Origin: Scenedesmus sp. ARA3
Taxonomy: Eukaryota; Chlorophyta; Chlorophyceae; Sphaeropleales; Scenedesmaceae
DNA: 64,000 nucleotides
Direction of reading: 5' to 3'
Assembly: GCA_004335835.1 (NCBI GenBank)
Contig: RWJK01001672.1
Coordinates: 274,007-338,006, forward strand
Shown one piece after another: positions 669-62,074 of the stretch; the first letter of the stretch is position 1; every line of letters begins with the position of its first letter. Under the pieces are notes generated by a model. That model searched no databases. It was not told the DNA's origin and saw only the letters and a list, made by a program, of their open reading frames with translations. A program made the translations under genes and the position numbers.

Positions 669-2987
669 TCAGCGTGCGCAGGCACGTCTTGTCACCCTGC
701 AGCAGCAGCAGCAGCAGCAGCAGCTTATGTAAACAATGCGTCCGATCCAAATTAGGGCCGCCATCCACTGATTGCATGCGTGTTCCTGAGCAGCGCAGTG
801 AATCTTCAAGTAACGCCTTGTTTGGAGCTCTTTATGCATCCTCTGCCAAACATCAGCGTGGCGCCATTTAAACATACAAGGCAGCAGGTACATGCAAGGC
901 TCATTCTCCAAGGCCCAGCACTGCAGCACTGTTCAACCCAAGTAGTGTCCACTCACGTAGCTCATCAGGTTGTTGAAGTTATTGAAGTAATTGCTGCCCT
1001 GGGGGAAGCCGACAGCAGCACTGCAGGACTGCTGCGCGTATGCCGTGGTGTTGCTGTACGCGCCAGTCTGGGGGTTACAGTCCACAAAGCGCAGGATGTC
1101 TGTCACGCTGTTCCGTGTTCCGTTCAGGGACTGTGCCGGAGTGTCACGAACGCCGTCGGAACGCCCTGCAGTTGCAGGTGTGTGGAAGGAGCAGCAAGCA
1201 CAGCATGACTTACGGAGGGCAACATGCGCTGCTGACACATGCAGCTTGGATCAGAAGCAGCTTGTATTGGCAGCAGTGGCACACACACGTCACCGGCTCT
1301 GCCACGTTCTGTGTAGTTTCCCTTAGCAGCAAGAACATAACCATAGTCAGCAGTAAGCAACAATACAGCAACCGGCAACTGAGATAGCAATGTGAAATGT
1401 CAAACCAACTAAGCACACACCAACTCACCAGCAATGATGTCGGCAGGATGCGTGCTGGCGCTCATCTCGCACTGCTCCTGCAGCGAGGGCTTGCCGCCAA
1501 AGCGGCGCTCCTCGTACCAGGTGTGATGCAGCATCTGCGGGCGCAACAGCACATCACAACCAGTAATTCTCAGTGTGATAGAACATAAAATGCAGCCATT
1601 TGCTGCTGCTGTGGCATCACCACATGACGCGCAACGCAGTGATGCCTGTGGAGCTGCTGCCTTGTACTCACCAGCTGGTGCCCAATCTCTTGTGCCTCAT
1701 GAAGCATGAGTCATGAGACATCCAGCACAAACTGCAGTATATTTTAACAGCTGCACTGAGGTGCACCGCACTCACCAGCTGGTGCCCGATCTCGTGTGCA
1801 AGTGTAGCGCCGCTATCAGACAGCCCGCCATCGATCAGCGACCGCCCACCCAGCCCCGGCAGTGTCTTCTCATACAGGAACACCCTGCGGCCAGCAGGGC
1901 GCAAGCGGCAGACAGCAGACTCTCAGCAGCGATAATCATAACTGCAAGCAGCATGTGTGCAGGCACAGGACAACTCTGCGACCAGCTCGCAGTGCGAGTG
2001 CCACCAACAGCATCTGACTAGTGGGGCTCTTGAAGCATCACAAATGCGTCGTAAGGCAAGCCTCACCAGTTGGCGCAGCCTGGCATTGCTCCAGTGGTCA
2101 TGTATGAGGGGTACAGCGTGACACCCAGTGATGTGCCGCTGCAGCAGTAAAATGGAACAAAAGAACATAGCCATATGAGTACACGGCGTTGTGAGCAGAG
2201 ATGCACAGCCATGCCACTTGAGAAAGGACCAGGGCATCTAGCAGTGAGGATTGAGGCAAGATACAGGCTACTCATTGTATGGCTGCCAGCTTACTGCCAT
2301 GGCATACATTCTGAACGGCACTACTCAACAGCAGTTCTGCCCTGCCAGACATTGCTGCTGCTGCTGCTGCTGCTGCTGCCACCACTTATTGTGCAACACA
2401 AGCTGTTGGAAAAAGAGCAGCTTCCAGCCTCTCACCCAAGATGAGTCGGCGCCGTCACGACATTGATTGCCGCCTGGTCACCAAAGCGCTGCTGCTTGCA
2501 TATCCAGCACCGTCCGCTCGGATCCAAGCACACATCAATGTCATTCGGCGAGCTTGCATTCGCGTAATGCATCACGCCATCCCACTTGAACTGAATGCCA
2601 ACATGCGCATACAGCCTGTTTACATAATCCACCTGCTCCTGCACAAGGTCTGCTGTGTACCTGCCACCAGTGCAGTCGCCGCTGCGGCAAACCCTCCCAG
2701 CCGTCCAATATAACGGCAGTACAATAGGGTTTGCAGGAGGGCCTTGGTCTGCTGCCTGGCAAGCCTGCATTTGACTCTCTGCTTCTAGCTGCGTCTCTGC
2801 TACTGCTGCAATGCCAACACTGCCAGGGCCACCAGCTAAAAGCTGCAGCGGGTAGGGCTCGTGTGCGCCGCAGTCGTCTGGCTTTGCCTTGCGTGCGCTG
2901 GCTGACGCCGCTGCAACCGCTGCTACTGCAACACCAAGAGGGCTGCTTGAATCTGCTGCAACAGCAACCTTGGACTTGCGATTGTCA

Positions 2988-3026
<39 letters not shown>

Positions 3027-15165: not shown

Positions 15166-16981
15166 GTCGCACCTGGCGTGTGGCTGGGTCGTACTTGAAG
15201 GCGTTGCGCGTGGCGGTGTGCGGGTTGCTGTTGACAAAGTCCTGCTTCTGCTCCTCTGCAGGCGCACAGCAGACAGCACAGCAGACAGAAAGCAGGTCAA
15301 GGTTGCTGCGGTTCAGACACCATCAGCCAGTAACTGCATGCATCTAGTGTGCTTCTCTGCAGGTGCACAGCAGGCACCATGCACAGCACACAGGTCAAAG
15401 CCAACACTGCAGCTCGCGCCATGGGCATCAGCCGGTGCCATGTGACGTTGTGCATGCACTTGCTGCTGCTGCTGCTGCTGCTGTGCAGGCGTAGAATGCA
15501 GAAGCAAACCCCAACAAGTCCATGAGTGCCTGGTTGATGCTGATGTCGGCCACATACTGGAACACTGCAGTGGCCACAGGGATCCACTTACACTGGCACA
15601 CACAAACACACCCAAAACCTGCGGTCAACTGCGGTCAACTGCAGTCAACACCGCACCTGTGAGCTCGTCCATGAGCGCCTGGTTGATGCTGATGTCGGCC
15701 ACATACTGGAACACCGCTGTGGCCACTGGGATCCACTTGGCGTGGTCCTTGCCGATGCCCTTGCGCGCAGTGGCGCGCAGCTTCACTTCCTGGTTGCGCC
15801 CCAGCTTTAGCAGCACCACTGCAAACATGCGGCAAGCAGGGTGCAAAAGAATCAAGCGAACCATGAGATTTGAACCACGATGCGCGCAGCTTGACATCCT
15901 GGTTGCGCCCCAGCTTCAGCAGCACCACTGCAGGATTTGAATTGAGAGGCCGGGCGCATGTAGTTAAATAAATCCAGTTTAAAATCGTAGTTTAGTAAAT
16001 CCAGAGGAAAATGACAGCAATGGCGCATTCAAAATGGCAAAACGGCAGGCAAGACACAATCAGTTTGAGGCGCGAGTGCGGTGCAGCTTCACTTCTTGGT
16101 TGCGCCCCAGCTTCAGCAGCACCACTGCATGGAAAACATTCGAGGGGATGAAGCGCAGGTCAGTTGGGTTGTGAAGCATTCACCAAGCCAGCAAGCCAGC
16201 AAGAGCGCCTCCTGGTTGCGCCCCAACGGTAGCAGCACCACTGCGGGGTGCCCTCCTGCTCCTGCTGCCTCCTGCTGGTGCGGCTGCGCCATCACATGCT
16301 CCACAAAGAACCCAACTCCACACAGCTGCTGCGGCCGCAGCTGCAGAGATGCCAGCCTGCCGAGACGAATGCCACACACCCCACCCGCCCACCTGGCTTG
16401 ACGCTGCCGCCCTGCTGCTTCATGACCGCCTGCGTGACCGGCACTACGCTGTGGTTTGCATCAGGGATGAGGTCCAGGTCTGTCACGCCCTGCTGCTTCT
16501 TCCCCTGCTGCTGTTGCTCCTGCTGCCGGTACTGCTGCTGCTGCTGCTGCTGCTGCTGCGCTACCGCTGCAGCTGTGGATGTGTCAGGTAACCCACCCCC
16601 CACCCCAGCCCTACCCCCACACCTACACAACGCCCACCTGGCTTGACGCTGCCGCCCTGCTGCTTCATGAGCGCCTGCGTGACCGGCACCACGCTGTGGT
16701 TGGCGTCAGGGATGAGGTCCAGGTCTGTCACGTCCAGTGAGCGGCCCTCGGTGCACTTGACGTTCAGGCTGAACTCAACCTCTGAGCACTGCCCCTCAGC
16801 AAAGTCCTCGAAGGGGCGCACCATGTGCCTGACGCAGCAGCGGCAGCAGCAGTGTTGTGGGCGAAGCACAAGGGTTGGATGTAACGGCAGGGGTGCGGGG
16901 TGTGGGTTGTGGCAGGGTGATATGTGGCGGGTTGCAGGCGGCTGCTGGTCAGCGGCTATCCTGTGCATGCTGCGGATTGGC

Positions 16982-25426: not shown

Positions 25427-28400
25427 CAGCAGAAATGGCAGCAGCAGCAGCAGCGCTGGTGACTTGCGAGCACCACATGATGGTGGCATTAGGCTAATCT
25501 AGCATTTGAAGGCACCGCTGTGAGCACAACCATTGCAGCTGTAGCTATCTGCTGTCTGCAGGGTTGTGCACTGAAAATTCAAATCTCAACGGGTACACAA
25601 GTAACATTGCCTGCTAGGGAGCCGATGCTAGGCTCATTGCGTAGGAAAAACAACACCAAGAGACACCACTCACTGGGTGGTGGCGACGGTGATGGCACTG
25701 CAGCAGCAGGTGAAGTTGAAGGCATGACAGCGGGAGATGCAATGGGACTGGGCGAAGGACTTGGCGCTGTCACCAGACTCTTCAGCAATTGCACAATGCG
25801 TGCATCACACAGCCTGAAAGGCCCCCTGCTTGCTGCTGACAGCTTGCGCGCAGTGCCCAGGTTTGAAGCGACAAGGTCTGCCAGCACATCAGCCTTGCGT
25901 AACCGCATGCCTGGTGATACGGCTGCTGTGTCAGCGAGGGCGGTCAAGTCGTCCATTAGCTTCACCAGCCGCTGCGGCTGCTGTGGTGTGTACAGCAGGC
26001 AAGCTGACTGACTGCTGGATTCAAAGGCCAGGGATAGCTTGAGTTGCTGTCTGATTTGCCTCGCACGCGCGAGGGGGTTGGCCCTATTGTACTGCAGCGC
26101 AAATGTGTAGTCTGGCTGCATAAGGTTGGCGGCTCCATAGGCAGCTCTGAACGAGCCGCCGAGGCCCCAGTTCGGTCCCCAGCTGCAGCAGAACAGCCAG
26201 GACAAAATGCAAGGTTCAAAACAGGAGCACGGCTGGGTTCACTGCTGGACATGAGCAGTTCGATGTGCAATTGTCTGACATCCTGATTGGAAGAAAGGAG
26301 ATGCTGGAGTATATGTTGCAGAGGCGCAAGCTGACTCAGCAGATGCAACAGCAAGCTGACTCAGCAGATGCAACAGCAAGCTGACTCAGCAGATGCAACA
26401 GCAAGCTGACTCAGCAGATGCAACAGCAAGCTGACTCGGCAGATGCAACAGCAAGCTGACTCAGCAGATGCAACAGCAAGGTGACGATGACAGAGGGGTT
26501 ACATGGTGTGTGCATGCGGCATGCGCCACCACTAACACCTGTTGAAATAGGTAGCTGCAAGCAGCTCAGCTCAGGCTGTCACTCTGAGGTTCAACCCCAG
26601 GCAGATATAGTGTGTCCTGCAATCCACCTGTTTTTGCACAGCCAGTACCCGTCGTTGGCATCTGACATGTTGTCCCACCATCCGTAGCAGAACACAGCGT
26701 GCATGGACAGATCGCCTCGTGCGGTGTCCCGCAGGTCTTCGGCCACCCCAAAGACCCCGTTTGAAGACGTCTTGTGTTCCACGAAGGCGCTGAATGCGTT
26801 ATTTGACAACGCCAGCGATGTGATGACCCCTCCGTTCAGCATGATCTGCTCCTTCACCTGTGCCATTGTGGCAAGAGGGTTGCCGCTGTATGCCATGGAG
26901 AGGGCGCCGCCTGCCAGAACCAACAAAATGAAAATCTTGAAGTAAATTTCAACGAACGTGGAGCCACATAATGTCAACAGAAGGTTCTGCATTCAGACTT
27001 CAAGCAAGCATGTTTGTCTACCTTTGGGGGGCAACTTCCACTGGGATGGCAAAGGGTGGCATTTCCCTCTGTTGCCAGGGTGGTGTTTGTATGTGTGTGG
27101 ATGCGGCATACAACACTGCTCTGACACCTGGTGTGTTTCAAGGCACAGCACACAGCTCAGCGCAGCATTCACTCCTTCACTTCAATTCAAAGCCGCTCAC
27201 CTGCCGGCAGCTGTGACGCGCAGCACTGTGGGGATCCGGCAGGGCAGCTGTCACTGACAGCAATGCAGCTGGCAGCAGTTGGGTCGCCACTGTAGCCGAA
27301 GCAGCTGCGTGCCGCCCACCTCTTGATGCGGTTCTCATTGATGTTTGCTACCACAGTTTGATATGACGCCCCAGTTGCGCAGCTGACCTTGGGCTCCAAC
27401 CTGCAGAGCAGCACATGTTACATCTCATGTCACACCAGCCAATCTGCCAGCTCAGTCAGCAGCCCGCAGCTGCCCTGCTGCGTACATTTGACTGCCGCCT
27501 GCAGCTGTACTGCCAGCTCATCACACTGCCCACATCTGTAGAAGCTGAGGTTCTGCTCTGGCGGGCCCAGCGTGTCTGTCTTGCTGGTATTTTGAGAATG
27601 CAGTTTCGTCTCATAGCCACAACGAAACAGGTGACAATTTTACTGCGGTGCGCCATGTTGAAAAATGAAGTTTTGATTTATATAATTTCAACAAATAAGA
27701 CAGCAGCTGCTGCTCACCTGCAAAAGCTGAGGTCGTGCTCTGACAGGCCCAGCTTGTCTGTCTTGCTGGCATTCTGAAAATGCAGTTTTCTTTCATAGCT
27801 ACAACATGCCAGGCAGCAGCTGCTGCTCACCTGCAAAAGCTGAGGTCCTGCTCTGACAGGCCCAGCTTGTCTGTCTTGCTGGTATTTGAAACCTGCAGTT
27901 TCCTTGATGACACTTCAATGTATAAGGCAGCAGCGCCTGCTCACCTGCAAAAGCTGAGGTTGTGCTCTGACAGGCCCAGCTTGTCGGTCTTGCTGGTATT
28001 GTGAAAATAAAGTTTTTCTTCATAGCTGCCACAAACCAGGTAGCAGCGCCTGCTCACCTGCAAAAGCTGAGGTCCTGCTCAGACAGGCCCAGCCTGTTCC
28101 AGTTCTGCCGCTTGTACACGTTAATGGCAGCCTCAGCAGCAGCAGTGACAACAAAGCCCACGCAAGCTGAGCATGTGTCTTGGTTCTGCAGCAGCAGCAG
28201 CAGCAGCAGCAACTTGAAGGCCGGCGCGTGCAATTTGCCCCAGCTCTCCTCTTCAATGGGGGTTCAGTACTGTGGTTTAGACATAGCGCAGTTGCGCACT
28301 GTAACACGGCCGTACTGCAACACAGTACCGCACCGCAGCTGTACAGATGTATATTACATCAAAATGTGTCTTGTGCCTCCTTACCTGTGCAGGGCTTATG

Positions 28401-35095: not shown

Positions 35096-35337
35096 ATCTA
35101 CCAAGGTCCTTCGCTGTTTGAGACAGCCTGCCGGCAGCGCTGCACACACACGCAAATCTCTCAGCCCGTCACTGCTGCTGCTGCTGCTGTTGCTGCTGAG
35201 CCCATCACAGCACCACAACCCCAGCTGCCGACAGCTGCAATGCACATGCGATGTGAGCAGCTGTCCCGGCAGCCACCTGCCTGCAGGCAACCATCGTCGG
35301 CACCATCCGCACACCAGCTCAATTGCCAGCATCAGCC

Positions 35338-35545: not shown

Positions 35546-35604
35546 TAGCATCAGGCCACACACCAGCAGCAACACGCAATCGCCCCATAAAGCTTTACTG
35601 CCAA

Positions 35605-36174: not shown

Positions 36175-36210
<36 letters not shown>

Positions 36211-36841: not shown

Positions 36842-39629
36842 TGCTGCTGCGTTGCTGCTGTCAGCAGGTGACTTGCTCTCCTGCTGCTGCTTCGCCTCAT
36901 CGTCAGCTGCTGCTGCAGCCTGCTGTTGCTCCTCTTGTGTTTCCTCCTGCTGCTTCTGCTGCTGCTGCTGCTGTGATGTCCGCAGCTTGCTAGTGAATGC
37001 AGCCAGCCGAGCCATGGTGTCCTTCTGGCGGTTGCCAACCTGCACACAGCAGCGCGCAGCAACCAGCAAGAACTTCACTGCGCCGCACTCCACCGCATAG
37101 CACAGCACATCAGGTCTGCACCAAGGAACGATGCCAAACCCTCAGCAATGAGTACAAATGCGAACGCGGATCCAACACACGCTACTCTGGGTAGGCACCG
37201 GCCTGTTTGTAGTCCTCTGCATAGGCTTGCATGGCTTGCTGAGCGCGCTGCGCTGCGCCCACCTGCTGCTTGCGCATCTCATACTTCTGCGCCCAGCTGC
37301 TGTAACACGAAGCATTGTATGCAGCATGCATGGCTCAGAGCGGCATGCTGCAAGGCATGCTGATAGCGCTGTGCGCCCTGCCGCACCTGCTGCTTGCGCG
37401 TCTTGTACTTCTGCCGGCTGAGCTCAAAGGCCTTCAGCAGCTCCCCATCAGCCACAGCATCACTCACGCGCACCCTGCAGCAGCACAGCCATAGATGCAT
37501 TGTCAGTTGTTGTGCACAGCATGAAGCACCCTACAAGCTGCCAGCCAGCCAAGGCATCTCTCACACGCTCCCTGCCGTTGAGGAGCGCAGGGCAGCAACA
37601 CATGCGCTGTGAGCCAAAAACACAGCATGCACAGACTGTCCAGCAGCGCCCCGTTCAGCAGCAGCAGCAGTGAATGCTGGGCTGTCTGCAGCTCTCATAT
37701 CAATGCAGTGTTTGATTGGGACATGCACATTGGACTGCAACCCCCGTGTCCGTATCAGCGCTGCACAAGACACAAGCTGCTGCTAGCGTCTGGTGCCAAA
37801 AATGACGGCAAAAAATGACAAACGAAATGACAACCGACGCACCTGCCAGGGCCCTGCTTCTCCTTCATTTGGTACAGCTCATCTTCCTTGCTAGCAGGCT
37901 TCGCTGCTGCTGCTGCTGCACCGCCCCTGCTGCCCCTCCTGTCCCTGCTTCTACTCCTGCTGCGGCTTCTGCTACTGCTGCCACCGCCAGGTGACCGCCT
38001 GCCCCTGCTCCTGCTCCTGCTTCTGCTGCGGCCGCGACCTGCATCACCAGCTGCTGCTGCTGCTTCCCTGGCGGCCCGCGCGCTGCTCGCTTTGTCCGCT
38101 GCTGCCCGTACGCGCTCAGCAACCATTGCTGCAGCACCGGAGGCGCCCTTGCGCGCTGCTTTGCGACCTGCGCCATCTTCATCGCTGCTGCTGCTGCCGT
38201 CGTCGCTGTCGTCAGCATCTCGCGCACGCTTGCCCCCTGCAGCAGGCGAGATCATCCATGGTCACTTTCACCTCATTTGTAATGGCTGACAGCACAGTTG
38301 TTGTCATCACACAGCCAAGCCAGCACCCATATATGACTCCCAAACACAAGTATGGTCAAGGCCTTGCCTGCTGCGCCTGCTGCCTACAGCTTGTCGTGCA
38401 CCGCGCTAACTGCTGCAGCCCGCACTTTTTCCCCCGCAGAACTATTCCAGCCATCAGCAGCCACAACTACTGCATTGTCATCTGCTACTGCTCCTCATGC
38501 GCCCAACCAACCCAATGCGCCTCAGCAACACAAACATACCTACAGCACCCTACAGGCACCCGCCCGTACACACAATTTTTTTTTGACCAGAACTAAATTG
38601 CTATGGCTTGATAGGTGATTCATGATGAACCAGAGCCTCACCTGCTGCACCTGCTGCCCGCAGATTGTCCTGCACGGAGCTGACTGTTGCAGCGCATGCC
38701 TCTGTGTCCAAAAACAAACCAGATTTCTCAAACACGGCCGCACCTGCTGCCCGCAGCTTGTCCTGCACGGAGCTGACTGCAGCAGCGCGCGCCTCCCTCT
38801 CCCACAAACACAAACCAAATTGCCACAAACACAAACCAATCAACCAGAGCCTCACCTGCTGCGCCTGCTGCCTGCAGCTTGCTCACAAATACAAACCAAA
38901 TGGCCACAAACAACAAACCAGATTCTCACACAGAGCCGGACCTGCTGCCCGCAGTTTGTCCTGCACCGCGCTGACTGCTGCAGCGCGCGCCTCCCTGTCC
39001 CGCAGCACATCCTCTGGTGTCTCCTCAGGCGGCAGCAGCGAGGCGTCAACACCCCTCAACACCTCATGCGCCGACCTGCACCGAGTAAACATACACAGCA
39101 GAGAGCAGGGGTCGATACAGACGTGAGCAGGGAAGACGACAGCAGCAAAGCGTCCACACCCCGCAGCACCTCAAAGTTTGCCAGCGAGACATGACATGCA
39201 TGTTGGAGAGCCGAGGCACCTGCCAACACAAACACATGTGTTCAAAGGCAGCATGGTTTCTGCCAGTCATGAACGGCAGGTGTGGGAGATGGCGCGGCCT
39301 CAGCGCAAAAACACCCATTGACACCAGCTTGCTGCAGCACACATGCCGCCAAACAAGCATGCCACCCAGCCGGCAGCATGCCACACGCACCTGATCTTGG
39401 CTGGCGCTGCTGCCGCCTCCTCCTGCTGCTGCGTGTCCTGGCCAACATAACAACCGAGCAAGCACACCGAAAAGCGACCAACACAGCATGCAACCTGCTT
39501 GCACCCACTTGATCTTGGCTGGCGCTGCCGCCACTGCCTCCTCCTGCTCCGCGTCCTCCCCAAAGCTGAGCAGGGCCAGGTTGCGCTTCTGGCCCTTGCG
39601 GGACTTGCGCACCTCCGACGCCTTCCTGT

Positions 39630-39664
<35 letters not shown>

Positions 39665-40925
39665 AGCGGAGCGACTCAGCATGGCAACTTGGATGTCAGC
39701 AGCCAAGTGCGCACATGCAAAGGTACTACTGCCCTGCTTTTGGTCCTTATTCTCCTCCTGCCCTTGCTCCAGCCAAGCTTATTGTTAACAACGACAATGG
39801 GCACGGCTGGCAGCTGCCTCACATGAACTGCTCCTGTGCGCGGCGCTCCGCTGCTGTGGTGCGCGGCACGATGTCCTCAAAGGGGTTCCACAGCACCTCC
39901 ACCCCGGTGATGATTGGGGGGTCAGTTGGCCTGTCAGTCTCCTCATCAACCTGCAGCATTGTGCAGCGCAAGCAGCAACGCGTAGCAGATCAGCTCGGGT
40001 TGGGTTTTGAGCAGTTGTGGGCGGGAAGCGCAGCGCCCCTCAACCTCGGCACAGCAGTGCAGGCAACAGCCACTTTGTCACCTGATGATGCTCATCCCAC
40101 AGCTCTGGTTCAATCTGTGGCCCACGATATCATACTAGCCAGAAGAGTAGTGTTATCAGCCCATGCACAGTGCAAAAACAGATGACAGAGCCCTGCTTGT
40201 GCAACCGCCGCACCTCCAGCTCGTTGAGGCGCAGCATGTTGTGCACTGTGCTGCCCAAGATACTGCACATTAGCATGCCGGCCAAAACCCCAACCCACGC
40301 ACAGTGCAAAACCCTGCTCGGCCGTTGCCGCACCTCCAGCTCGTTGAGGCGCAGCATGTTGTACACCGTGTCACCCACAATCTTGCCAAAGATGGTGTTC
40401 TTCTTGTCCAACCAGTCACACCTGCGCCAGCAGCAGCAGCAGCAGCCGCAGCGGCCTTCAACACAACACGCATGTCTCCAGACACAACCTGTAGATCAGC
40501 CGGCACGATGGTTGCAACCACAGTGCTACAGCAGCACCACGACAGGCCGCCTGCTTTTCACAGCAGCCCGAAGCAACACGTGCAGGATATAACAGTTGTA
40601 ACACGATGTAAGCCTTCCCGCAGCTGTTCCAGCACTTTCCAGCGTGATGATGAGCTGACTGCCGCTGCTGTGCGACTTGTTGGCACACTTTGCTGGACGA
40701 GCAATGCATGAAACATACACTTTTACACGACAGAGCACAACACACATTTTTATCAACAGAACCAAATCAAAACCAGCCGCTCACTTGTCGAGCGTGATGA
40801 AGAATTGGCTGCCGTTGGTGTGCGGCTGGTTGCGGTTGGCGCAGGCCACCAGCCCGCGGTGGCTGAAGCGCAGCCGGCTGTGGAACTCATCCTTGAAGGG
40901 CGCGCCGTAGATGGAGTCGGAGGCT

Positions 40926-40970
<45 letters not shown>

Positions 40971-42946
40971 AGAAGTCAGCTGATATACATTCACATGCGG
41001 GGTGGTGAAGCGCAGCCGGCTGTGGAACTCGTCCTTGAAGGGCGACCCATAGATGGAGTTGGAGGCTGCAGCACAAGCCAGCACAATAAGAGTAGAATGA
41101 GTATGCGCAACATATGCCGCGGCGGCTGCCGCCGTGCTCTGATGAAGCTGCAGTAAGGTCACATCAACCGCAGCCGGCTGTGCAGGTCGACCGCAGAAGA
41201 AGCGGTGTATATGGATTTGGAAGCTGCAGCAGCAGACAGCACACCGACTATCACACAGCAGCAACAAGACACGCCACGCCGTGCTGACACACACAAGCAT
41301 TTATGGCTGTAGCCCCAGCATTCTCCCTACTGCACAGGCAGGCGCAAATGATGAGCAACTAGCCAACAAAGGCTACTGCCACCTGCGCTCCATGCTCGCA
41401 GTGTGAGCGCACTCACTGTCTCCCGTGTTGGTGGGGTCGCCAGTCTGCTTCACTACAACATACAATGCAACTGTTACACTCAAGCCAAGGCCACGGGCCG
41501 GCCACGCACTGTTTCCTGCTTTGATGAAGTTTCCTGTCTGCATAGCTGAGACGTACAATGCAACACTTTGACTCACTGTCTCCCGTGTTGGTGAGGTCGC
41601 TTGTATGCGCCACTACACCATGCGATGCAGCAGACAAGCTCAAACCACTCGCTGTTTCCTGTGTTGGTGGGGTCGCCCGTCTGCGCCACTACACCATGCA
41701 ATGCATAGCTATTAAGCAATACTCAATTTCAGGACACAAGCCAGGCACTCACTGTCTCCCGTGTTGGTGGGGTCGCCCGTCTGCGCCATGAAGTCCTTGA
41801 TCACGCGGTGGAAGGCGCAGCCCTCGTAGTAGCCCTCAAGGCACAGCTGCACAAAGTTGCGCACAGCCTGGCGGCAACGGCAGCAGCACGTGGACAAAGA
41901 GGCTTAGTATCACCTTGGTGCAGAAGGCAGCTATTCAGTTAAGCCAGAGCCAAGCTGCTGCTGACACATGCCCTGGCCCATGGTGCTGACAGCGCCATAC
42001 CCCCCACACACACCATCGCATGGGCACCAGTGGCTGATTATGTGCCAGGTGCAGCAGCATGCACTGACAGCCACGACACTTGGTGATCAGGGCGCAGGCA
42101 GCTGAGCATTGCTGATTGCTGCCCGCAGTCGCTGATGATGTGGGCACCATGGGCAGCAGCGTGCACGGACAGCCATGTTGTGGTGCGGCCGGCTGCACAT
42201 TGCTGAGTACTGCCAACAAGTGGGCAAGCATGGAAGCACTCGAGATCCAGCATTTGCCAGCAGAGTGGCGGCGCTGTGTGCTTGCAGCAGTGGCAGGTGC
42301 AGAGCAAGCTGCTTGCTGCAGGCGCTGCTACTGCCTCCTGCTGCTGCTGCTGCTGCAGGACTCCTGCAGCAAGGCATGCTTGTGCTGCCGCTATGCTGCT
42401 CGCCCACTGATGTTACGACCGTCGTCAGACATGCCAGCGTGGCAGAGATAAATCTTGGCTAGCTGCCCAAGCGCACAGCAGCGTGTGCGCTGAGGAATCC
42501 AGTTGCTGGCTGTTTCTGCGCTACCGCGGCCGCCCGCTGTAGCTGCTGCCGCTGCTGCTACTGCTGCTGCTGCTTGGCCAATTGTTGCCGGCCTGCTGCG
42601 CATCAAGTATTGCCACATACACAGCTGTGAGGTGCACACCTTTGGCGCCTCTTTTGGCCATAGCTCAATGTCCAGGTCACCAATTGTGGTCTTCAACGAC
42701 ACCTATTAATAGCACCACAACCAGATACTTTGTTAGAATACAAGTTGCAGCAGCAGATAATTGGAGTATGAAAGAGGCAGCAGCAGCTCTAGCTGGAGGC
42801 AGTGCTGCAGCTGCGGCTGTGCCGGGTGAGTAGGAGAGTCCACCTTTCACTACTCAACTACAAGTGCCCGAGCATGGACAACTGAACTGTATGCAGATGC
42901 TTACCTTGCCCTTCGTTGGGGGCTCGGTGTTGTAGACGGTGGACAT
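35605..42946 (-). CDS. CWC27: spliceosome-associated cyclophilin CWC27, 13 exons (615 aa)
   Basis: Exons (minus): 42905-42946, 42640-42702, 41753-41867, 40785-40923, 40334-40421, 39823-39950, 39509-39625, 38942-39075, 37843-38236, 37387-37474, 36785-37039, 36343-36461, 35605-35770. All phases agree. The N-terminus [20 protein letters not shown] and the cyclophilin domain ([71 protein letters not shown]) match eukaryotic CWC27. FHRV retains the family Arg. [12 protein letters not shown] follows, then an Arg/Ser repeat region, a coiled coil ([14 protein letters not shown]) and a C-terminus with [11 protein letters not shown] and REKKK, like the human protein. CWC27 is a Bact-complex spliceosome component that pairs with CWC22; its isomerase site is degenerate in other species. 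Its introns hold more than a dozen partial exon copies. Confidence 0.92.
35845..36012 (-). repeat. two acceptor-side copies of CWC27 last exon
   Basis: About 35970-36012 is an almost exact copy of the start of exon 13 with its CAG acceptor ([14 protein letters not shown]). About 35845-35885 is a shorter one (a deletion removes part). Both are upstream of the parent (35605-35770). Confidence 0.85.
36496..36567. repeat. (CAG)n tract in CWC27 intron
   Basis: Two CAG runs (the longest about 12 units) on the plus strand read as (CTG)n shortly upstream of the exon 36343-36461. Confidence 0.8.
37215..37302 (-). repeat. donor-side copy of CWC27 exon 10
   Basis: It repeats KYxxRKQQ plus the GTG donor and about 40 nt of the following intron of exon 10 (37387-37474), downstream of the parent. 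An AG precedes it, so it might splice as a small exon. Confidence 0.75.
38357..38885 (-). repeat. three or four donor-side copies of CWC27 exon 8
   Basis: Copies at about 38740-38800, 38635-38700 and 38357-38420, plus a short one at 38855-38885, repeat [16 protein letters not shown] and the region after it, all downstream of the parent (38942-39075). The farthest has an in-frame stop (KL, then TAG). Several carry a better donor (GCAG followed by GTGAGG) than the parent's GTCCGG. Confidence 0.85.
39125..39185 (-). repeat. acceptor-side copy of CWC27 exon 8
   Basis: Upstream of exon 8 lies a diverged copy of its first part ([12 protein letters not shown] against [12 protein letters not shown]). 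Confidence 0.7.
39390..39430 (-). repeat. donor-side copy of CWC27 exon 7
   Basis: The end of exon 7 (AAAAPAKI) with a consensus donor (CAG followed by GTGCGTG) lies about 115 bp downstream of the parent's weaker donor (CAA followed by GTGGGTG). Confidence 0.8.
40207..40252 (-). repeat. donor-side copy of CWC27 exon 5
   Basis: It repeats NMLRLNELE and the GTGCGG donor of exon 5 (40334-40421), about 125 bp downstream of the parent. Confidence 0.85.
40924..40968. repeat. (CAG)n at CWC27 exon 4 acceptor
   Basis: About fourteen CAG units on the plus strand, that is (CTG)n ending in the very CAG that is the acceptor of exon 4. Confidence 0.9.
41004..41228 (-). repeat. two acceptor-side copies of CWC27 exon 4
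   Basis: About 41004-41067 ([17 protein letters not shown]) and 41175-41228 (more diverged) repeat the exon start with its GCTGCAG acceptor. Both lie upstream of the parent (40785-40923). Confidence 0.9.
41418..41697 (-). repeat. three or four donor-side copies of CWC27 exon 3
   Basis: Copies at about 41650-41697, 41572-41615 and 41418-41450 (plus a weak one near 41510) repeat [10 protein letters not shown] and the GTGAGT donor of exon 3 (41753-41867), downstream of the parent. All cover only the last 35-45 nt of the exon. Confidence 0.9.
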
Positions 42947-48181: not shown

Positions 48182-49472
48182 GAGCTGCAAGTTGCAGTAA
48201 GCTCCACTTCGAGCGCATGCACATTAATTTCAACTGTTCATGCCGCATGTTGCAGTGCACTCTGAATGCTTCAAGTGGATGCCAATACGTTGAATGGTGG
48301 CGCATGTCTGCAATAGCCCTGCTGTAGCAGCACGGGGGAGGTGCACCGCCTGTGACAGGTGGGATAGCAGCAGCATTAACGGCTTCTGCAGCAGCAGCAA
48401 CTGTTGCAGCAGCAGCAGCAGCACATGTGCAACGGCTACGGGCGTTGCACAGGCAGTGGCTGTGTTGATGATGCAGGCAGCCCTGCTGCAGCAAGCACAG
48501 CAGGCTCACTGGCACTGTAATCAGCACATCAAAGCTGATGGCTGCCACTGACGGGGCCAGTGTATACAGGGCCTCAAATACAGGAGGCGAAAGCGGGTAC
48601 AGCAGTGGCAGTTACACTTGGCATGCACCAGTCGAATGCTACACGCCTACCCCTACTTCCTCAGGTGTCGGCTAGCAGCCATCATCCACACCCATCACCA
48701 TGCGCCACTCAAGCAGCTCCAGGCTAGTTTGGTGAAGCTCAAGGGCAGCAATTGCAACCAATCTTTTAGACTGAACCCGCGCTGTCACACTTGGGGGTGC
48801 CAACATGGTATCCTAGGTACATGTTGAACCCTATGTGCATACTAGTTCTAGATTTCCAGCGGCCTAAACGCCCGCCGCCACCTCTTCTGCTGTCGGCTCG
48901 CAGCCATCGTCCACGCCCCACTTGAGCAGCTCCACGAGCTGCTGCTGTCACAGCATTTGACGGTCAAATCCACATCCGTCTGGTCTGACGGCACAGCAGA
49001 CAGCCACATCAATCACAAACGAACGCAGCCGACTGGCTGAGAACATCGGACACCAGCACACACCGAATACAAACTGTTACACATGATGTCAAACACACAC
49101 GGTCCTTGTAGACCATTGCTGCCTCGTATGTACATCAGCGTATGTACAGCCCAAATGCTCACAAGCCGGCTACACGCCCGCCGCCACCTCTTCTGCTGTT
49201 GGCTCGCAGCCATTGTCTACGCCCATGACCACGCCCCACTTGAGCAGCTCCAGGACTCGAGCCTGGCAACTTGTCTTAGGCCAAAGGGCAGCCAAACCTT
49301 ATCCATTGCAGACTGCAGTCTGCAAGGCCACCGGCATTTTGCAAATGATGAGGTTTGGCTGCCCCTTAGCCTGGCAGCTAGCTGCCAGTAGATCTGCACT
49401 CGCCAAACCCGCGCTGGTGCGCGTGCGAGTGGCAACACCATACTATGTACAGCCCAAATGCTTGTCAGCCGG
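48182..49472. other. intergenic region holding copies of the HAD gene end
   Basis: There is a minus-strand frame at 48129-48548 and CAG/GCA-rich sequence at 48385-48423, neither convincing as a gene. The rest is occupied by repeats of the HAD gene's terminal exon (next entry). Confidence 0.5.
48650..49262 (-). repeat. three copies of the HAD gene's stop-codon end
   Basis: About 49166-49262 (nearly identical: ELLKWGVVMGVDNGCEP...AAGV then TAG), 48862-48945 (shortened) and 48650-48720 (diverged, with an internal stop) repeat the last 80-95 nt of the gene. Copies become more diverged with distance from the parent. Confidence 0.9.
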
Positions 49473-50214
49473 CTACACGCCCGCAGCCACCTCTTCTGCT
49501 GTTGGCTCGCAGCCATCGTCTACGCCCATGACCACGCCCCATCTGAGCAGCTCCAGGAATTGAGGCCGAGACAGCAGCCGGATGCCGGGAATAGCTTTGG
49601 CCTGCTTGCGCTCCGCTGCTGTGTTGTATCCCCTGCAGCACACAAGGAAAACACCAGATATCCAAGGTGTCGGCGCCATGCTGCTACACTTCAGGCATAC
49701 ATGACTCGCATCTGCCTGTTGGAAGGCACCAGAGACAGCAGCAGGCGCAGCACTGCACACTTTCAAAACATTGTGATAAGCAACATTGCTTATCACAAGG
49801 AAAATTGCTTATCACAACATAACATAACACTGTGTTACTGCTGAGCAGCTTGCGGTGCTCTATGTCCATTACAAAGCAGCTCACCAGTCTGCCATGTATA
49901 GCTTCCAGCCCTGCAGGCCAGCCTGCTGCACCGCCAGCAGCGTATCTAATCTGTCATCAACAAAGTGCAGCTGTGCGCCGCTGTCACGGCACACAGGCCG
50001 CTCCACAATAGTTCTGCAGCAAAAGACAGCAGCAGCAGGGGCGGCGACAGAAAGGCAAATGCATCAACAGCAATGAAACGGCAGAGCTTGGCATAGGTGG
50101 CTATGGTGTGCAAGCTATTCCAACAAGATGCGCCTCACAACCATTGCTGTGACGCCTGCTGCTAGGCATATTGCTGATGCCGCCGCTGCAGCAGCCGCAG
50201 CAGCACTGCTCAAC

Positions 50215-50247: not shown

Positions 50248-50858
50248 ACTGCTAAACCCCCGCTGTACCACAATCCCTCCTCACCTGAGCGCCTCCACCT
50301 TCTTCTCCTCTGGCGGCAGCAGCGAGGCGAACAGCCGCGGCGAGTCTGGCGTGAGGTCTGGCAGTGCAAAGTGCTCCTGCATCAGCGTGGACACGCGGTG
50401 CGCGGCCTTGCTGCGGCATGAAAATCAACAACAGCAGCAGCAGCAGTTAGGGACCCCCGCAGTAGTTGTACCCAACAGGTATGCAGGAGAACTGTGTTGC
50501 AAAGTGCTCCTGCATCAGCGTGGACACGCGGTGCGCGGCCTTGCTGCGGCATGAAAATCAACAACAGCAGCAGCAGCAGTTAGGGACCCCCGCAGTAGTT
50601 GTACCCAACAGGTATGCAGGAGAACTGTGTTGCAAAGTGCTCCTGCATCAGCGTGGACATGCGGTGCGCGGCCTTGCTGCGGCGTGAGGTACAAAAGCAG
50701 CAGCAGCAGCAGCGGCGGCAGCAGCAGCAGCACCAGCAACGGCAGCAGCAGCAGCAGTTAGCAACCCAGCACTAACTGTCCCCAGCAAAAACAGGACAAG
50801 TGCTCCTGCATCAGCATGGACACGCGGTGCGCGGCTTTGTTGCAGAATGTGGGGATTG

Positions 50859-50902
<44 letters not shown>

Positions 50903-52522
50903 GAGGCCCTCAGCAGCGCTGGTAGTGACCTCTTTGATCTGTCAAGCATCTGTCAGCAATTCACCATGCGCCGCTCACCTGCTGCACAGTAGAAGTAAGA
51001 CACAGGCAGCCAGCACAACCACCATGCCAGCATCAGGCTAGCTGCACAGCACATACGACATTCACACCACCCCTACTACACTCACCTGCTTGCAATGTAG
51101 ATGGGGTACTCGCAGCTTGCCATGGCCTCAACCATGCCCTCATAGGGTCGGTTGCGGTCCAGCCAGCCGGCCCTGTCTGATGCCAGCCAGGCAGCCCGGT
51201 GCTGCTCAAAGGTAGTTTGCAGCTGCTCCCATGACTCACCCCACCTGCAAAACAACAAAGGCGTGTGACATTTGATTCCAGGTGAAGATCGTCAGGCCAG
51301 CCACGCTGCGCAGTGGTGCGCACAGGAGGCATGCAGCTGCTCCCACTGCTCTCCCCACCTGCAGGACCAGGAATGCAGCTCACATAGATTCACTTGAATC
51401 TTTGTTTCATGGACCAGAACTGATACCTGATGCACTGCTTCACTCGAAGCTGCAGAGGTTGTTTGAGTAAGTGAAAGCCAGCAACGAAGGGGCGCTTGCC
51501 TGAGTGGTGCGATCAAGGGTGCAGTGCATGATCCCACAGCTACAACCCCAAAGCAATAAAGCTGCCATAGCCAAACCCTACCGGCAAACCCTGCAGCACA
51601 CTTGCACTCCCGCCCACCTGTCCAGTGTTTTGTGCAGCAGCGGGTGCCAGTCTGCCAGGATACCGTCCACACATCCGGGATCTTCCAGCAGCATCCTTGC
51701 CATGACCATGCTCTCATAGCCCCTCACAAGCACTGGCCGCGTGCTGCGGAGGCCACCCATGACCTGCTGCTGCTGTGCTGCTGTTGCGGAGCTGAACAGG
51801 GCTGGCCAGTAGTCCCGCGCTGCTGCATACGCCGAGGAGGACACCTGCAGGGTGGAAAGCCACAGGCGGTCGTTGCTCGAGTCAGATGCTGTCATGTACA
51901 CATACAATACGGAGCTGAACAGATCCTGCCAATAGTCGCGTGCTGCTGCATCAACTGAGGAGGAGACCTGCAGGATGAGAAGCCACAGGCGGCTGTTGCT
52001 GCAGTTGGTAAGTTGCATACTTTTAGACCTGGCAGGACAGTGTGCAGCATCCCGTGGCAATTGGCAAGAGGCGCCTTCAAAGCATTGGCGGGGCAGCTGC
52101 TGTCAGAGATAATTGAGAGACGCATTGACTTAGGTCATTGCAAGGACTTGTCCTATAAGTTATTTTCAAGAACACAAATGTTGAAATGGAGTTGAACACA
52201 CACCAAGAGCGCCGAGAGCGCCAGCGCTGTCGGTGCTGTTCCTACTGCTGCTGCTGCAGCTGCTGTGACCTGGCAAGCACTGACAGGCACATTGTAGCTG
52301 GCAATCCTATTTCTGTGTTTTAAAGTGCTGCATAGCTCAGCGCACCTCAGGCTCTGAGTCTACCAGCACTCCATCAAAGTCCAGCACAAAGACATCAGTG
52401 GGGCCAGCAGCAGCAGCACACATCCTGCGGGGGCGAGTAGCTCGTGCTACGCTCGCTACGTGCGGCTTCTGCTGTATTTGTACTGTGTAATGCGATGTTT
52501 GTCTGTGCCTCAGCAGCTGCAT
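49473..52522 (-). CDS. plastid-type HAD-superfamily hydrolase, 6 exons (325 aa)
   Basis: Exons (minus): 52346-52522, 51618-51844, 51086-51244, 50285-50410, 49885-50013, 49473-49632, phases consistent. The ATG at 52522 starts an Arg/Ser/Ala-rich, acid-poor N-terminus (RATRPRRMCAAAA), a likely chloroplast transit peptide. HAD motif I is DFDGVLVDSE (nucleophile and acid/base Asp). The cap follows in exon 2 (RPVLVRGYESMVMARMLLED). YPIYIASSK is motif II/III-like (Ser after the strand, with Lys). Motif IV is LHFVDDRLDTL with the two Mg-binding Asp. This is a subfamily I phosphatase-like enzyme; the plant homologues of similar layout are plastid HAD proteins of undefined substrate. Partial copies of exons 2, 3, 4 and 6 surround the parents. 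Confidence 0.88.
50498..50842 (-). repeat. three acceptor-side copies of HAD exon 4
   Basis: Copies start at about 50542, 50676 and 50840 (parent start 50410). Each has the CGCAG or TGCAA acceptor and about 42 nt of exon (KAAHRVSTLMQEHF). The two nearest copies are separated by 132-134 bp units that also share intron sequence (GGGACCCCCGCAGTAGTTGT). The farthest has a changed acceptor (CAA). Confidence 0.92.
50865..50901. repeat. (CAG)n tract in HAD intron
   Basis: Twelve or so CAG units on the plus strand, that is (CTG)n upstream of the outermost exon 4 copy's acceptor. Confidence 0.85.
51287..51362 (-). repeat. acceptor-side copy of HAD exon 3
   Basis: A CTGCAG acceptor plus about 70 nt resembling exon 3's start (GTGGGG...GAGCAGCTGCA, ending in GCGTGGCTGGC) lies about 115 bp upstream of the parent (51086-51244). 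The frame is shifted relative to the parent. Confidence 0.85.
51890..51967 (-). repeat. acceptor-side copy of HAD exon 2
   Basis: CCTGCAG plus about 65 nt (VSSSVDAAARDYWQDLFSSV) repeats the start of exon 2 (VSSSAYAAARDYWPALFSSA) about 122 bp upstream of it. Intron sequence before it (GTGGCTTCTC/GTGGCTTTCC) is also shared. Confidence 0.92.
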
Positions 52523-56700: not shown

Positions 56701-58529
56701 TTACTTTGGCAATCGAAATCACTAGCACAAATCCGGCCGTTCCAGTTGCTTTTTAAGCCCAGACACGCCATTGCTTGTGGGGCCGCTGTCATTGCACTCA
56801 CCTGAGAAACTGACAGACGACTCGTAGCATAGCTTTGTAACGGGATCGCAGATGCCCGTACCACTTCCTGATGTGGAGTCGACCCAAGTGCACATGACCG
56901 GGTCGTTGTAATCCCAAGAGGCAACGGACGAGCAGCCGTTTGATTTGTGACCGATGACGCAGTTCATGCCAGAAGCGTCATTGCGCAGGCGCGGGGCCAA
57001 CTGCAGGGGCAGAAGTGCAGCACAAGCAGGATTGAGATGGTGCGGCATGGCCGTTCACTGCAGCATGACATTGTAGGGCGTGGTGTGAATGCATTGCAAT
57101 GCAATTGCAACCCCATGGTAGTGTTGAGAGCTGTTGGTGTGTGCCGCTGTTGCCTGAAAATCAACTTGAAAGCATGGTATGAATCGGTACGACATGGCAT
57201 GTTTACTTCTGGATACACTGTGTCATGCAGTACTCATGGTGCAGCATGGCGCAACACAATGTAACATAACACCGCAGAGTGCAGCATGGTAGAACATCCC
57301 ATGCTTTAGATTTGATTTCATTCAGAAATCCGTGTAGTTGGGACACTTTTGCATGCTGCGGCCACCCATTGGGTTTTTGTAGTTCCACAAAGCTCTATAG
57401 TATATCATGTGCTGCAATATGGCAGAACATGGTAGAGCACGTGCCGCAAATCATTGAAAAGATGCTTGCCAGACCATCAAGTTGAACCCAAAGTATAGGT
57501 GGTACAACATGGTGCAGTCAGGTGTAACATAATGCAGTGACATGCAACATGGTGCAGTGAGGTGTAACATGCACTGCAGACAACCAGACAGGCCCACCTG
57601 TGTGTAGTTCAGGCAGTTGCGCGAGCCGCAGCCATCCATAAGGTAGTCTTGAACGCCATTGATGGCGTTGTTGAAGTCATACACGTGCTGCTGCTGCATC
57701 TGTTGCCCAGCAGCATAAAAGGCGTTGCCAACTGCCACAGCAGCACCATCAGGCACAGCAAGAGCAGTAGAGAAACAGATTTAAAAAATGAGCGTGCCGC
57801 GTGCTCAACAGAGTGTGTTGACAGAGCTTGCAACTACAAGTCAGCAGCATCATCCAGTGCTAGGGCAGCACTGCCCTCGTGCTGATGCTGACAGGTATGG
57901 CTTACTAGGATGATCATGCGACTGCCCCAACAGCAACATCTATGTGACAAAAGCTCTCTTGTATTGCTCACCGATGCTGTTCATCTCACACACCAGGTAG
58001 TCCTCCATCTGGCTGAGATCTTTTTCAAGCTCTGCAGCAGCAAATGAATATGTTAGCAACATGCTAGTGGCATGTTAGTAACACGTGAGTAACATGCAAA
58101 CCTTACTGGTGCATTTTGCACACCAGGTAGTCCTCCATCTGGCTCAGATCCTTCTCAAGCTCTGATGCAGACACATGTTGGCAACTGCACGCACTTAAAC
58201 ACGTCATTTGATGAGCACGCACTTCAACATGCCATATGATACAAATGCATTACAAGCTGTCACTTACATATGCATTGCAACACCGATGCGACACACATCA
58301 CGAATCCGTATGTGCAAGGTACAAATATTTTTAATATCAACATTGGGGAGCTCTTCACGCCTAAGTGCACCCTTGATTGTGGGTTTTTGTCATTCCTGTC
58401 GCTACATCAGTGTTTTGCTGCTGATCATGATGTTCTGCTTCTCCTGGCCTGTCCCATGTGCAGCAGGATTGTGCGGTGTGGTCATCAACTCAGGTCTAGC
58501 GCTTCGGTCACTGGGCAGATGTGCGTGTT

Positions 58530-59310: not shown

Positions 59311-59312
<2 letters not shown>

Positions 59313-59795: not shown

Positions 59796-59829
<34 letters not shown>

Positions 59830-62074
59830 TGCCCTACTCACCAGCGCTGTTTCCAGCCTGGCCAGCTTTAGTGTCATTTGGGTTGTTGACTATGATGTGC
59901 TTTGAATCACACACGCTGCCGCAGGGGTCAACACCGGTGACACCCCCTGACGGAGGGCCTGCAGCAGAATAAGCAGTAGGACTGCAGTATAGATGGTTGC
60001 ACCGAGTGCTGCATGTAACACACTGCAGCCGCAACTGTGCCAGGGGTCTGACACTAGTGTACCACTTCACGAAGCAACATGCAGCAGCAGCAGCAGCAGC
60101 AACAGCGAGCTCAACACACAAGGGCGCACACTCTGTTTCAAGTTGTAGCATGCATGCTGTGTGGTCGCTCACGTGAGGTTACTCTGACGGTGATGTAGGC
60201 TGTTGCCGTGGCCAGCCCATCAGTGAGGGAGTAGGGGAAGATATCAGTGCCTGAGAAGTTGGTGGGCGGCTGCATGCAGCAGAGAAGAAGTGCAGAGGCA
60301 GCTGTTATAACACTGTGTTATGGTGCGGCACAGTTTGCAGACATGTGCGTGGGAGTGCGCCTGTGCCTGTTCATTTGACTGAGACACATTTGATTGCCCC
60401 ACCTTGGCCCCACATACAGAAAGGCAACCGCCAGAGGTACACACACACACAGCAGCAGCAGCCGACACATTTCCTCAGCATCGCAGCGGCGGTCAGGTAC
60501 ACCGGTACCATCACACACAGCAGCAGCTCGCTCCAACTGGACACTTACTGTGTATATGTTGCCCGTAACAGCAGCAGCACCAGCATCATTGTGCGTGATG
60601 GTGAACACGGGAAACCACCAGAGGCAGGAATACAACAGCAGGAGCCAGATCTCCTCAACAAACACCAAGATTGCTATAGCAGTCAACAAAATCACAGCAA
60701 CCCATCTATAACATACAGCAGCTCCTTCCATCTCGGCACTCACAGTGTATCTGATGCCCGTGTCGTTGCCAGTCAGCTGCACTATTTCCACAATCCCGCC
60801 CTTGGCTGCCGGGCCGGCACCCGCCAGCTTCAGTCCCGGCAGATCCGTCGAATCCGGATCGAGCCCCCAATACAGCTCCGGAGCGATCACCGTGATCGTC
60901 ACATAACGATCAACGAGCGTGGTAGTCGTGAAATTGCGCGGCGTGGGTTTGTGGTTTGCCGGGGGCTGCATTGGCTCGCTGCTGTTGACTCGCACAAGGA
61001 TCATGGCAGCGGCTTGCTGCCCGTCTGCTGCTTGAGCAAGGAAGCTGACGTATTCCAGGCCATTAGAGCCCGGCTTGGAAGTGTAGCGCAGTGAGTCAGC
61101 GCCGCTGCATGTCGTGCGGCATGCGGCAGCAGAGATACATGCAGCAAGGCAGCAAGACGGGTTGCTTGCTGACAAGCAGTGCTATAAGTGCTGCAGAGCA
61201 CGTCAGTGTATCTGCATTGACGCAGGGTGCGATTCTGCTGCATTAAGGCTGACTCCAGCAAGAGTGTGCAAGTGCGAAAACGCACCAGAAAGTAGGCCAA
61301 TGATGCAGCCTGCCCATTGGTTGATGCTGCTGCTGCAGTGGCCTGCCCAATGGTTGATGCTGCGGCAGTGGCATGGCTGCAACTGCAGTGCTACAGACCC
61401 GCCTGCTGCTCTGCTGTTGCTGCTGCCACCAGGTAGGTTTCAGCGGCTGCTGCTGTTGCGTCTGAGCCAGCAAGCTACCAGAGTCACACCAGCGCTCTCA
61501 CCTGCTGCTGGTTGCTCGCACTATCGTCACGGTTCCCAGGCTGCTATCCGTGACCGCCACGATGCGCGTCACTGGCGCAGATCCCGCCATGATCACACCA
61601 GCCCCAGGAGCAAGTGGTGCAATGGCTGCCTGCAGCGAGCCAGCCTGGCCTCCTTGTGGCTGCAAGTCGACTAGCATAGTGCCACGCACGGTGGGAGGAA
61701 GGCCGGTCGCTGCCTGCCCAGTAGCAGCGCAGACAGAGCCAGCAGAATTCGTGCTGCTGCTGCTGCTGCTGCGTTGGGGTGTGCCAGAAAGTGTGTAGGT
61801 GGAGTTGAGGGCACCGCCAAACAATGCAGCCCAAGTGCTGCAGCTGCCGCTGGGCCCTGCACAACAGCAGCAGCAGCAGCAGCGGCAGCAGCAGCAGCAG
61901 CAGCAAGGCAGTCAGGAACCATAGTGCGTGTGCTGTGCAACAAGTGGCATGCCAGGTAGGTGCCCATACAGCAGAAGCAGCAGCAGCAGAATAGTTGCCA
62001 AGCGGGTGCACATGCATGGCTACTGCGTATCTTGTAGTGTGCGTTGGCGAGCAGTTGCCAGTGGCACCTGCAAC

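Follow-up and report, generated by a model that had tools for sequence, protein, structure and literature searches.

Why do introns in the 64,000-nucleotide (nt) stretch of Scenedesmus sp. ARA3 examined here (contig RWJK01001672.1, positions 274,007 to 338,006; hereafter the window) carry partial copies of neighbouring exons, and why do these copies appear to be sorted by side? An initial annotation, read from the letters, had proposed that copies including a splice donor lie downstream of the parent exon and that copies including an acceptor lie upstream of it. The window is the end of contig C1274 in an assembly of 87.3 Mb in 1567 contigs, and it has a GC content of ~55%, intron-rich genes and GCA repeats, features that suggest a green alga. 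Tetradesmus obliquus has 57% GC and a mean intron length of 462 nt, the longest of the five algae tabulated (PMC5966456), and we take the likeness as a resemblance only.

We analyzed the window together with 25 further stretches, 302,770 bases (302.8 kb) in all, some of them largely N; the stretch L013 (G000:C1274:1-10000), for example, has N at 9,865 of 10,000 bases. Since the extra stretches were in part chosen around peptidase matches or on the window's contig and otherwise at fixed positions, the sample is broad but not random. The gene CCT1 (L038, G000:C1492:1501-11500) was picked through a chaperonin family search that showed overlapping exon matches, which makes it a likely positive, yet one independent of the initial annotation. 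Exons were placed by tblastn with protein sequences, and searches of solved structures with single exons confirmed TCP-1 alpha (E 1e-20), CWC27 (E 8e-17) and RPB3 (E 1e-16). Gene models within the window were made for RPB3 and CWC27 only, and exon-copy status elsewhere in it is a reading of the sequence.

Copies lie on the side of the border that they contain

We scanned 38 exon borders with GT or AG (all 22 of CCT1, seven of RPB3, eight of CWC27 and one of an M43 peptidase gene) using a 30-nt exon probe placed 8 nt off the junction, and accepted ungapped identity of at least 72% within 1.5 kb either way. One RPB3 acceptor, the CWC27 exon 2 donor and the borders of CWC27 exons 6 and 7 were left out as unplaced. 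All 21 donor-end copies lay downstream of their parent and all 22 acceptor-end copies lay upstream (43/43 overall), as the initial annotation had claimed. Copies were present at 23 of the 38 borders: 16/22 in CCT1, 3/7 in RPB3, 4/8 in CWC27 and 0/1 in the M43 gene, because the 30-nt copy in the latter is too short for the scan. In the genes examined, an intron often contains between one and four such copies of its neighbouring exon's near end. Raising the threshold to 80% identity left 20 donor-end and 20 acceptor-end copies with no exception to the rule, and in a smaller set of 25 borders (two of them misplaced) 41/41 copies were on the matching side. Exceptions concerned the site itself: one RPB3 donor-end copy ends before the donor, and one CCT1 exon 11 copy has no recognisable site. 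In CCT1, acceptor-end copies lie upstream and start at the exon's first residue, and the donor-end copies, all downstream, run to its last residue.

The rule was also assessed with a codon score that used no hand-made gene models and took as parent the pair member whose flank stays coding-like. It held in 19 of 20 pairs overall and in 10/10 outside the window, with 104 of the 124 pairs unscorable. Among extra matches to a chaperonin hidden Markov model (HMM), all 15 that could be decided from the table of matches fitted the rule (three overlaps were excluded as undecidable), and seven of these fall in four contigs besides that of CCT1. The side rule is confirmed as real, also beyond the window. 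The parents and copies in the M43, RPB3 and CWC27 genes are the following.

1770..1799, minus strand: M43 peptidase exon end with its donor, HEIGHQL/gtgagt; taken as parent, being the 5' member on the minus strand (alignment)
1666..1695, minus strand: downstream copy of the M43 exon end, 93%, ending after GTGAGT (self-comparison, alignment)
15658..15819, minus strand: RPB3 exon with both ends copied (Rpb3-type subunits in PDB, E 1e-16; tblastn)
15882..15932, minus strand: upstream acceptor-end copy 1 of the RPB3 exon at 15658..15819, 94%
16070..16129, minus strand: upstream acceptor-end copy 2 of the same exon, 90%
16210..16247, minus strand: upstream acceptor-end copy 3 of the same exon, 86-91%
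15518..15589, minus strand: downstream copy (94%) from the 3' part of the RPB3 exon at 15658..15819, ending ~10 nt before the donor
16631..16735, minus strand: RPB3 parent exon end, donor gtgggcg (alignment, tblastn)
16386..16490, minus strand: downstream donor copy of RPB3 16631..16735, 95% over 105 nt, with an unrelated 140-nt spacer
40327..40370, minus strand: CWC27 parent exon end, LNELE/gtgcggc (tblastn)
40207..40250, minus strand: downstream donor copy of CWC27 40327..40370, 95%
40784..40927, minus strand: CWC27 exon with both ends copied (CWC27 homolog in PDB, E 8e-17)
40998..41085, minus strand: upstream acceptor copy 1 of the CWC27 exon at 40784..40927, 89%
41166..41243, minus strand: upstream acceptor copy 2 of the same exon, 74%, under the border-scan threshold
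40633..40682, minus strand: downstream donor copy of the same exon, 80%
41752..41870, minus strand: CWC27 parent exon, donor gtgagtgc (tblastn)
41409..41688, minus strand: four downstream donor copies of the end of the CWC27 exon at 41752..41870, 67-100 nt apart, with the fewest mismatches in the farthest one (1 in 32)

Similarity mostly breaks off at the splice site

The copies had been described as anchored on splice sites, and ungapped identity profiles over positions unused in detection bear this out, since they break at the junctions. At donors, identity was 0.92 and 0.83 at the exon edge, 0.81 at the GT, 0.37 at +7 to +12 and 0.25-0.34 farther into the intron. Acceptors had 0.92 at the exon edge, 0.89 at the AG, 0.48 at -7 to -12 and 0.25-0.38 farther in. 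The match extended at most 10 nt into the intron in 19 of 41 copies, and a donor copy of CCT1 exon 8 is identical at 68/68 positions and then runs into unrelated sequence. Some arrays depart from this exon-limited similarity, such as that of CCT1 exon 4, which is contiguous and keeps a recognisable intron half. No copy spanning both exon borders was found among the repeat families listed for CCT1, RPB3 and CWC27.

The same edge was detected without gene models. Of 121 spaced non-satellite pairs, 33 shared a donor-like GTRNG at the 3' edge of the repeat, within its final 18 nt, and 8 shared one at the mirrored position, within the 18 nt at the 5' edge; the 3' edge exceeded the 5' edge by 16 to 2 in the 45 pairs with at least 90% identity, and by 21 to 7 outside the window. 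The motif is informative only through its position at the repeat's 3' edge: a strict donor motif was common to 20 of 124 spaced pairs, and 22 such motifs against a bulk expectation of ~35 represent no excess. For acceptors, the frequent occurrence of CAG left the motif profile uninformative. The length of the open frame upstream of donor-edged copies was no guide to which member is the parent (19 to 14, p=0.49), probably because introns here have few stops.

The repeats are local and direct and probably multiplied as units

Self-comparison of the window at offsets up to 1 kb (BLAST, E<=0.01) gave 65 direct and 0 inverted repeats, and a rerun at 40 bits or more with a low-complexity filter gave 65 direct and 1 inverted. 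Over the 302.8 kb the counts were 200 direct versus 4 inverted, a bias that upholds local duplication as the origin, and an order-1 Markov shuffle (one per sequence) produced 0 local repeats. Redundancy removal left 154 pairs, 124 of them with members separated by over 5 nt. Nearest-neighbour offsets were 100-160 nt in 65 of 120 cases and below 60 nt in one, and among 292 arrays from Tandem Repeats Finder a period of 40-100 nt occurred in 7 and a second class of 100-160 nt in 18. The repeats of ~100-160 nt therefore look like a distinct size class and not like microsatellite slippage. The median step between units was 128 nt (42 steps); the exons of CCT1 measure 77-171 nt.

On the whole, copies of one border share their inner end as well. 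Within 13 arrays of at least two copies, the end inside the exon had a median range of 8 nt, and the spacing had a median coefficient of variation of 0.07 versus 0.23 overall; members of an array were alike in exon-part length (F=7.6, p=1.5e-5) and in spacing (F=5.1, p=3e-4), and two CCT1 exon 8 arrays departed from this pattern. Because the inner breakpoint and the spacing are shared, copies of one border appear to have multiplied as units. Similarity showed no clear trend with distance, and far copies were sometimes the most similar.

A genome search with CCT1 exon 3 returned five strong copies, all within CCT1, no other high match, and two further matches of 73-79% on contigs with other chaperonin matches; one repeat stretch of the window had three other matches in the genome, at 68-81%. 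Neither of these two sequences showed an introner-like spread over unrelated genes. Repeats of the window more than 1 kb apart mostly resemble (GCA)n or (CTG)n runs in both orientations, many of which fall in open frames that would read polyQ, polyA or polyS.

The telomere-like words of the CCT1 introns are unevenly placed: TTTAGGG-type words lie mostly in 5' halves (73 vs 7 complementary) and CCCTAAA-type words mostly in 3' halves (64 vs 26). They are not independent observations because they are located in amplified units.

The exon halves have diverged in part like coding sequence

When two intronic copies of the same border were compared (39 pairs), identity was 0.80-0.83 in the exon part and 0.55-0.57 in the intron part, against an unrelated baseline of 0.52, which indicates that the exon half was held together though neither copy is an exon. 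Differences between parent and copy numbered 48, 36 and 141 at codon positions 1, 2 and 3. Changes specific to the copies comprised 52 synonymous, 66 nonsynonymous and 3 stop changes, where 34, 84 and 2.5 would be expected without constraint (p=5e-4), a signal that is inflated insofar as old copies may keep ancestral bases since altered in the parent. Mismatches with period 3 were also seen in ungapped spaced pairs (249/433 vs 213 expected, 0/2000 simulations); contiguous pairs showed none, with only 3 of 30 scorable. Most of the 41 copies are gapless, and all 13 gap runs shift the frame. On the synonymous excess and the frameshifting gap runs, the data fit units that partly had a history as, or were rewritten by, a functional exon edge and were partly free sequence.

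Could the copies serve as exons, as the third-position bias might suggest? The frameshifts, the missing second splice site and the ordinary decay of the splice sites argue against coding exons, and the 'possible new exons' of the initial annotation are unsupported, the copies being half-exons with one splice site. Splice sites were kept as GT in 16 and GC in 1 of 21 donors and as AG in 18 of 22 acceptors. Per base, GT (0.81) and AG (0.89) were conserved no better than the adjoining exon edge (0.83-0.92), so the decoy role that had been suggested for them is unsupported.

Origin of the copies

The explanation that we favour, and to which we would give about an even chance, is that border units of ~130 nt were duplicated and multiplied, and that the exon halves stay alike through exchange with the constrained exon, whereas the intron half drifts. 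Segments of ~130 nt spanning one exon border would duplicate locally and then multiply as units, leaving short arrays of half-exons inside introns. A unit of about the size of an exon (~130 nt, compared with 77-171 nt in CCT1) that touches an exon should usually hold one border. An extra copy inside the functional border, toward the exon, would enter the message, and one beyond the border would be removed with the intron. The side rule could then follow without a guiding mechanism, because each unit usually has one border and survives only if the real exon stays intact. Less certainly, short gene conversion may pass sequence between the units and the functional exon, or unequal exchange or contraction may move a former copy to the exon edge, where coding selection would clean it; the intron half would drift to background because it has no such exchange partner. 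We suggest no cellular role for the copies.

How else might half-exons have entered these introns? The initial reading, in which segments across a border are simply duplicated in tandem and then decay neutrally, accounts for direct and local repeats, a regular period, the shared unit ends in 13 arrays and some contiguous arrays that keep an intron half, such as that of CCT1 exon 4. Those parts of it stand. It should, however, let both halves decay equally, and the intronic copies agree at 0.80-0.83 in one half and 0.55-0.57, near background, in the other; young pairs are spaced and not contiguous (0/21 at >=95% identity), and the copy-only changes have a synonymous excess. The sharp similarity edge at the splice site largely refutes its simple form, and we regard this account as improbable. 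Copies made each straight from the exon by a process that halts at the splice site, for instance template switching or RNA-templated repair with splicing intermediates, would explain why similarity is mostly gone within ~6-12 nt past the junction, why the exon 8 donor copy of CCT1 passes from 68/68 identity into unrelated sequence and why young pairs are spaced. Such copies should differ in their inner ends and be irregularly spaced, yet both are alike within arrays, and the orientation bias of 200 to 4 is compatible with the idea but unspecific; on balance we consider it unlikely. That a splicing-linked process in this lineage writes exon edges cut at the splice site back into introns, which would then grow by half-exons whose end is set by that site, seems to us decidedly doubtful.

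Selection might instead keep half-exons as decoys that regulate splicing, and many of the copied sites do look usable (16 GT and 1 GC among 21 donors, 18 AG among 22 acceptors). Retention at this level is about what chance predicts for two bases at an exon-edge identity of 0.83-0.92, and the copies are patchy among sister chaperonin genes, so that we think this scarcely likely; the frameshifts (13/13 gap runs) argue against coding use only and not against decoys at the RNA level. Unequal exchange between homologues could also have brought strongly diverged alleles together as units, in which case the coding-type divergence would predate the arrays. Differences rich in synonymous changes (in one copy of CCT1 exon 3, 4/4 of the changes specific to the copy) and differing donor variants next to similar exon halves agree with this, but the assembly holds no second allele of CCT1 exon 3, the one exon sought, and several old alleles would be needed per border. 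We therefore rate it very improbable.

Several observations weigh against the duplication and exchange of border units that we favour. A fresh founding duplication should be contiguous, and head-to-tail pairs numbered 0/21 at 95% identity or more and 4/52 at 90% or more, although BLAST may give just the conserved core of a longer unit. Exchange was not observed in this single assembly. The synonymous share of parent-copy differences was 60% (133/221), against ~44% in a rough hand estimate for neutral copies of a constrained parent. Enrichment at borders was not significant in CWC27 (4/5 families, p=0.20), and the number of different borders reached was not above rotation in CCT1, RPB3 or CWC27 (p=0.24, 0.30 and 0.55).

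How general is the pattern?

The pattern is patchy across genes. In CCT1, where repeats span 5,845 of 10,000 bases, 16 of the 18 families of local repeats reach an exon border (rotation mean 8.6; 0/4000 as high). In RPB3 the count was 4/4 families by a 10-nt overlap rule (p=0.05, marginal) and 3/4 by a 15-nt rule. The ends of family members lay near borders beyond chance in CCT1 (p=0.003) and RPB3 (p=0.007), and not in CWC27 (p=0.26). Surveys with HMMs found copies in 5 of 11 chaperonin contigs, clear copies in 1 of 15 proteasome contigs with one more possible (C1477), and none in six multi-exon adaptin contigs, where contigs with only long matches to the repeat-rich part of the model were uncounted. 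A cyclophilin HMM at E<=1e-3 showed no copies, the known ones of CWC27 included, so HMM matches under-detect them. One proteasome subunit in the list was matched whole (3-189 of 189) at G000:C1531:132006-132554 and is apparently intronless, the sole such contig there.

Examples outside the window, others of them found by eye, include the complex I 49-kDa subunit (L031) and peptidase C1 genes (L017, L019). The coding-likeness of repeat pairs there was 0.37 versus 0.32 for random intervals, compared with 0.49 versus 0.26 in the window. Being barely more coding-like than random, many local repeats outside the window may not be exon copies, and the process behind the local repeats probably acts outside exons as well. 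The initial annotation had held that copies placed at random, or equally frequent copies of pure intron or intergenic DNA, would count against it; the outcome is mixed, with a non-random side but, beyond the window, many repeats that lack a clear exonic character.

Other repeats and features of the window

Among the genes that the initial annotation had listed, copies were found in those for the M43 peptidase, RPB3 and CWC27 and in the C1A-RCC1 region, between 27.5 and 28.8 kb. No confirmation was obtained for the 'secreted unknown at 20.7 kb': its best pairs scored 28.3 and 24.7 bits, and window matches below 28 bits numbered 302 direct and 198 inverted. Further repeats lie at 32.2, 35.3-36.2, 37.2, 38.4-39.6, 48.6-49.6, 50.4-52.0, 58.0 and 60.5 kb.

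27526..28097, minus strand: C1A-RCC1 region tandem array, period ~115 nt, several copies ending TTTTGCAG/GTGAGCAG (donor type by sequence)
28607..28802, minus strand: contiguous 98-nt tandem pair, 95%, a rare head-to-tail case of high identity (self-comparison)
32217..32533, no strand: contiguous array, period ~132 nt, without identified exon (self-comparison)
35316..36193, minus strand: arrays, offsets 119-142 nt (self-comparison)
37228..37414, minus strand: repeat pair, offset 121, 80% (self-comparison)
38361..39004, minus strand: array, several copies reading GCAGCAGGTGAGGC or near it (self-comparison)
39384..39563, minus strand: repeat pair, offset 118, 82%, near the CWC27 exon 39538-39615 (self-comparison, tblastn)
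48638..49576, minus strand: repeats of the cadherin-like region, ~225-306 nt apart, up to 92% (self-comparison)
50365..50917, minus strand: array of 133-nt period, copies beginning CCGCAG/CAAGGCCGCGCACC, partly identical (acceptor type by sequence)
51182..51363, minus strand: repeat pair beginning TGCAG, 78% (self-comparison)
51787..52000, minus strand: repeat pair, 81%, one member beginning TGCAG (self-comparison)
57989..58170, minus strand: repeat pair, 90%, start near CAGAGCTTGA, end near CTGGTGTG (self-comparison)
60521..60761, minus strand: weak repeat pair, 80%, offset 195 (self-comparison)

The array at 50365..50917 is contiguous and of very uneven identity, with two units partly 100% identical, and is possibly a very recent multiplication. 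A 19-nt satellite of the GACAGGTAATGTGAAGAAG type adjoins an N gap at 19602-19701, and a short-period satellite of the ATTGCTGTGTCATATGTAC type, interrupted by N, occupies 414-704 of stretch L025. At 46805-48181 on the plus strand, one open frame, 458 aa long and matching DUF4436 (E 1.7e-7), is apparently intronless amid intron-rich neighbours.

Relation to known systems and meaning

Intragenic duplications that include exon-intron borders were reportedly described by Gao and Lynch in 2009 and by Zhuo et al. in 2007, and are said to have concerned intron creation or tandem arrays of exon and intron, not one-sided half-exons. Vaughn and Bennetzen (2014) reportedly deals with small tandem duplications. 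An intron of the potato RdRp gene was gained by local direct duplication of exon or exon-intron sequence with splice signals, as here; a new functional intron resulted there, whereas here old introns seem to have been filled and the outermost old sites are apparently still used (PMC4974935). Our copies sit within introns of three genes, on the exon's side, and these introns may be either new or old. Seven candidate introns of Drosophila were gained by tandem duplication of exonic sequence with proto-splice sites, but half-exon arrays in old introns are absent from the passages of that paper available to us (PMC2891723). Small tandem duplications arising at staggered breaks offer a route to short direct duplications; they are contiguous pairs of any sequence, and they leave the exon-limited similarity and the spaced young pairs unexplained (PMC8355091). 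Introners are likewise proliferating sequences that shape introns, but they reportedly insert into many genes, whereas the strong copies of CCT1 exon 3 are confined to their own gene (PMC9860276). We found no description of one-sided half-exon arrays in introns, most subscription papers lying outside the search.

The sequences record a process of intron growth, which repeat or gene annotation may overlook, or whose copies it may misread as exons. If the gene models hold, the cell would pass as many as four donor or acceptor copies, all flanked by tens of matching exon nucleotides, and use the outermost site. Under exon definition splice sites are recognised in pairs across the exon, and intron definition should favour the closer inner pairs. 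Because a half-exon has one splice site, the copy-filled introns would be a ready test between the two, and the arrays could throw light on how a genuine splice site is distinguished in the cell from an almost identical one close by.

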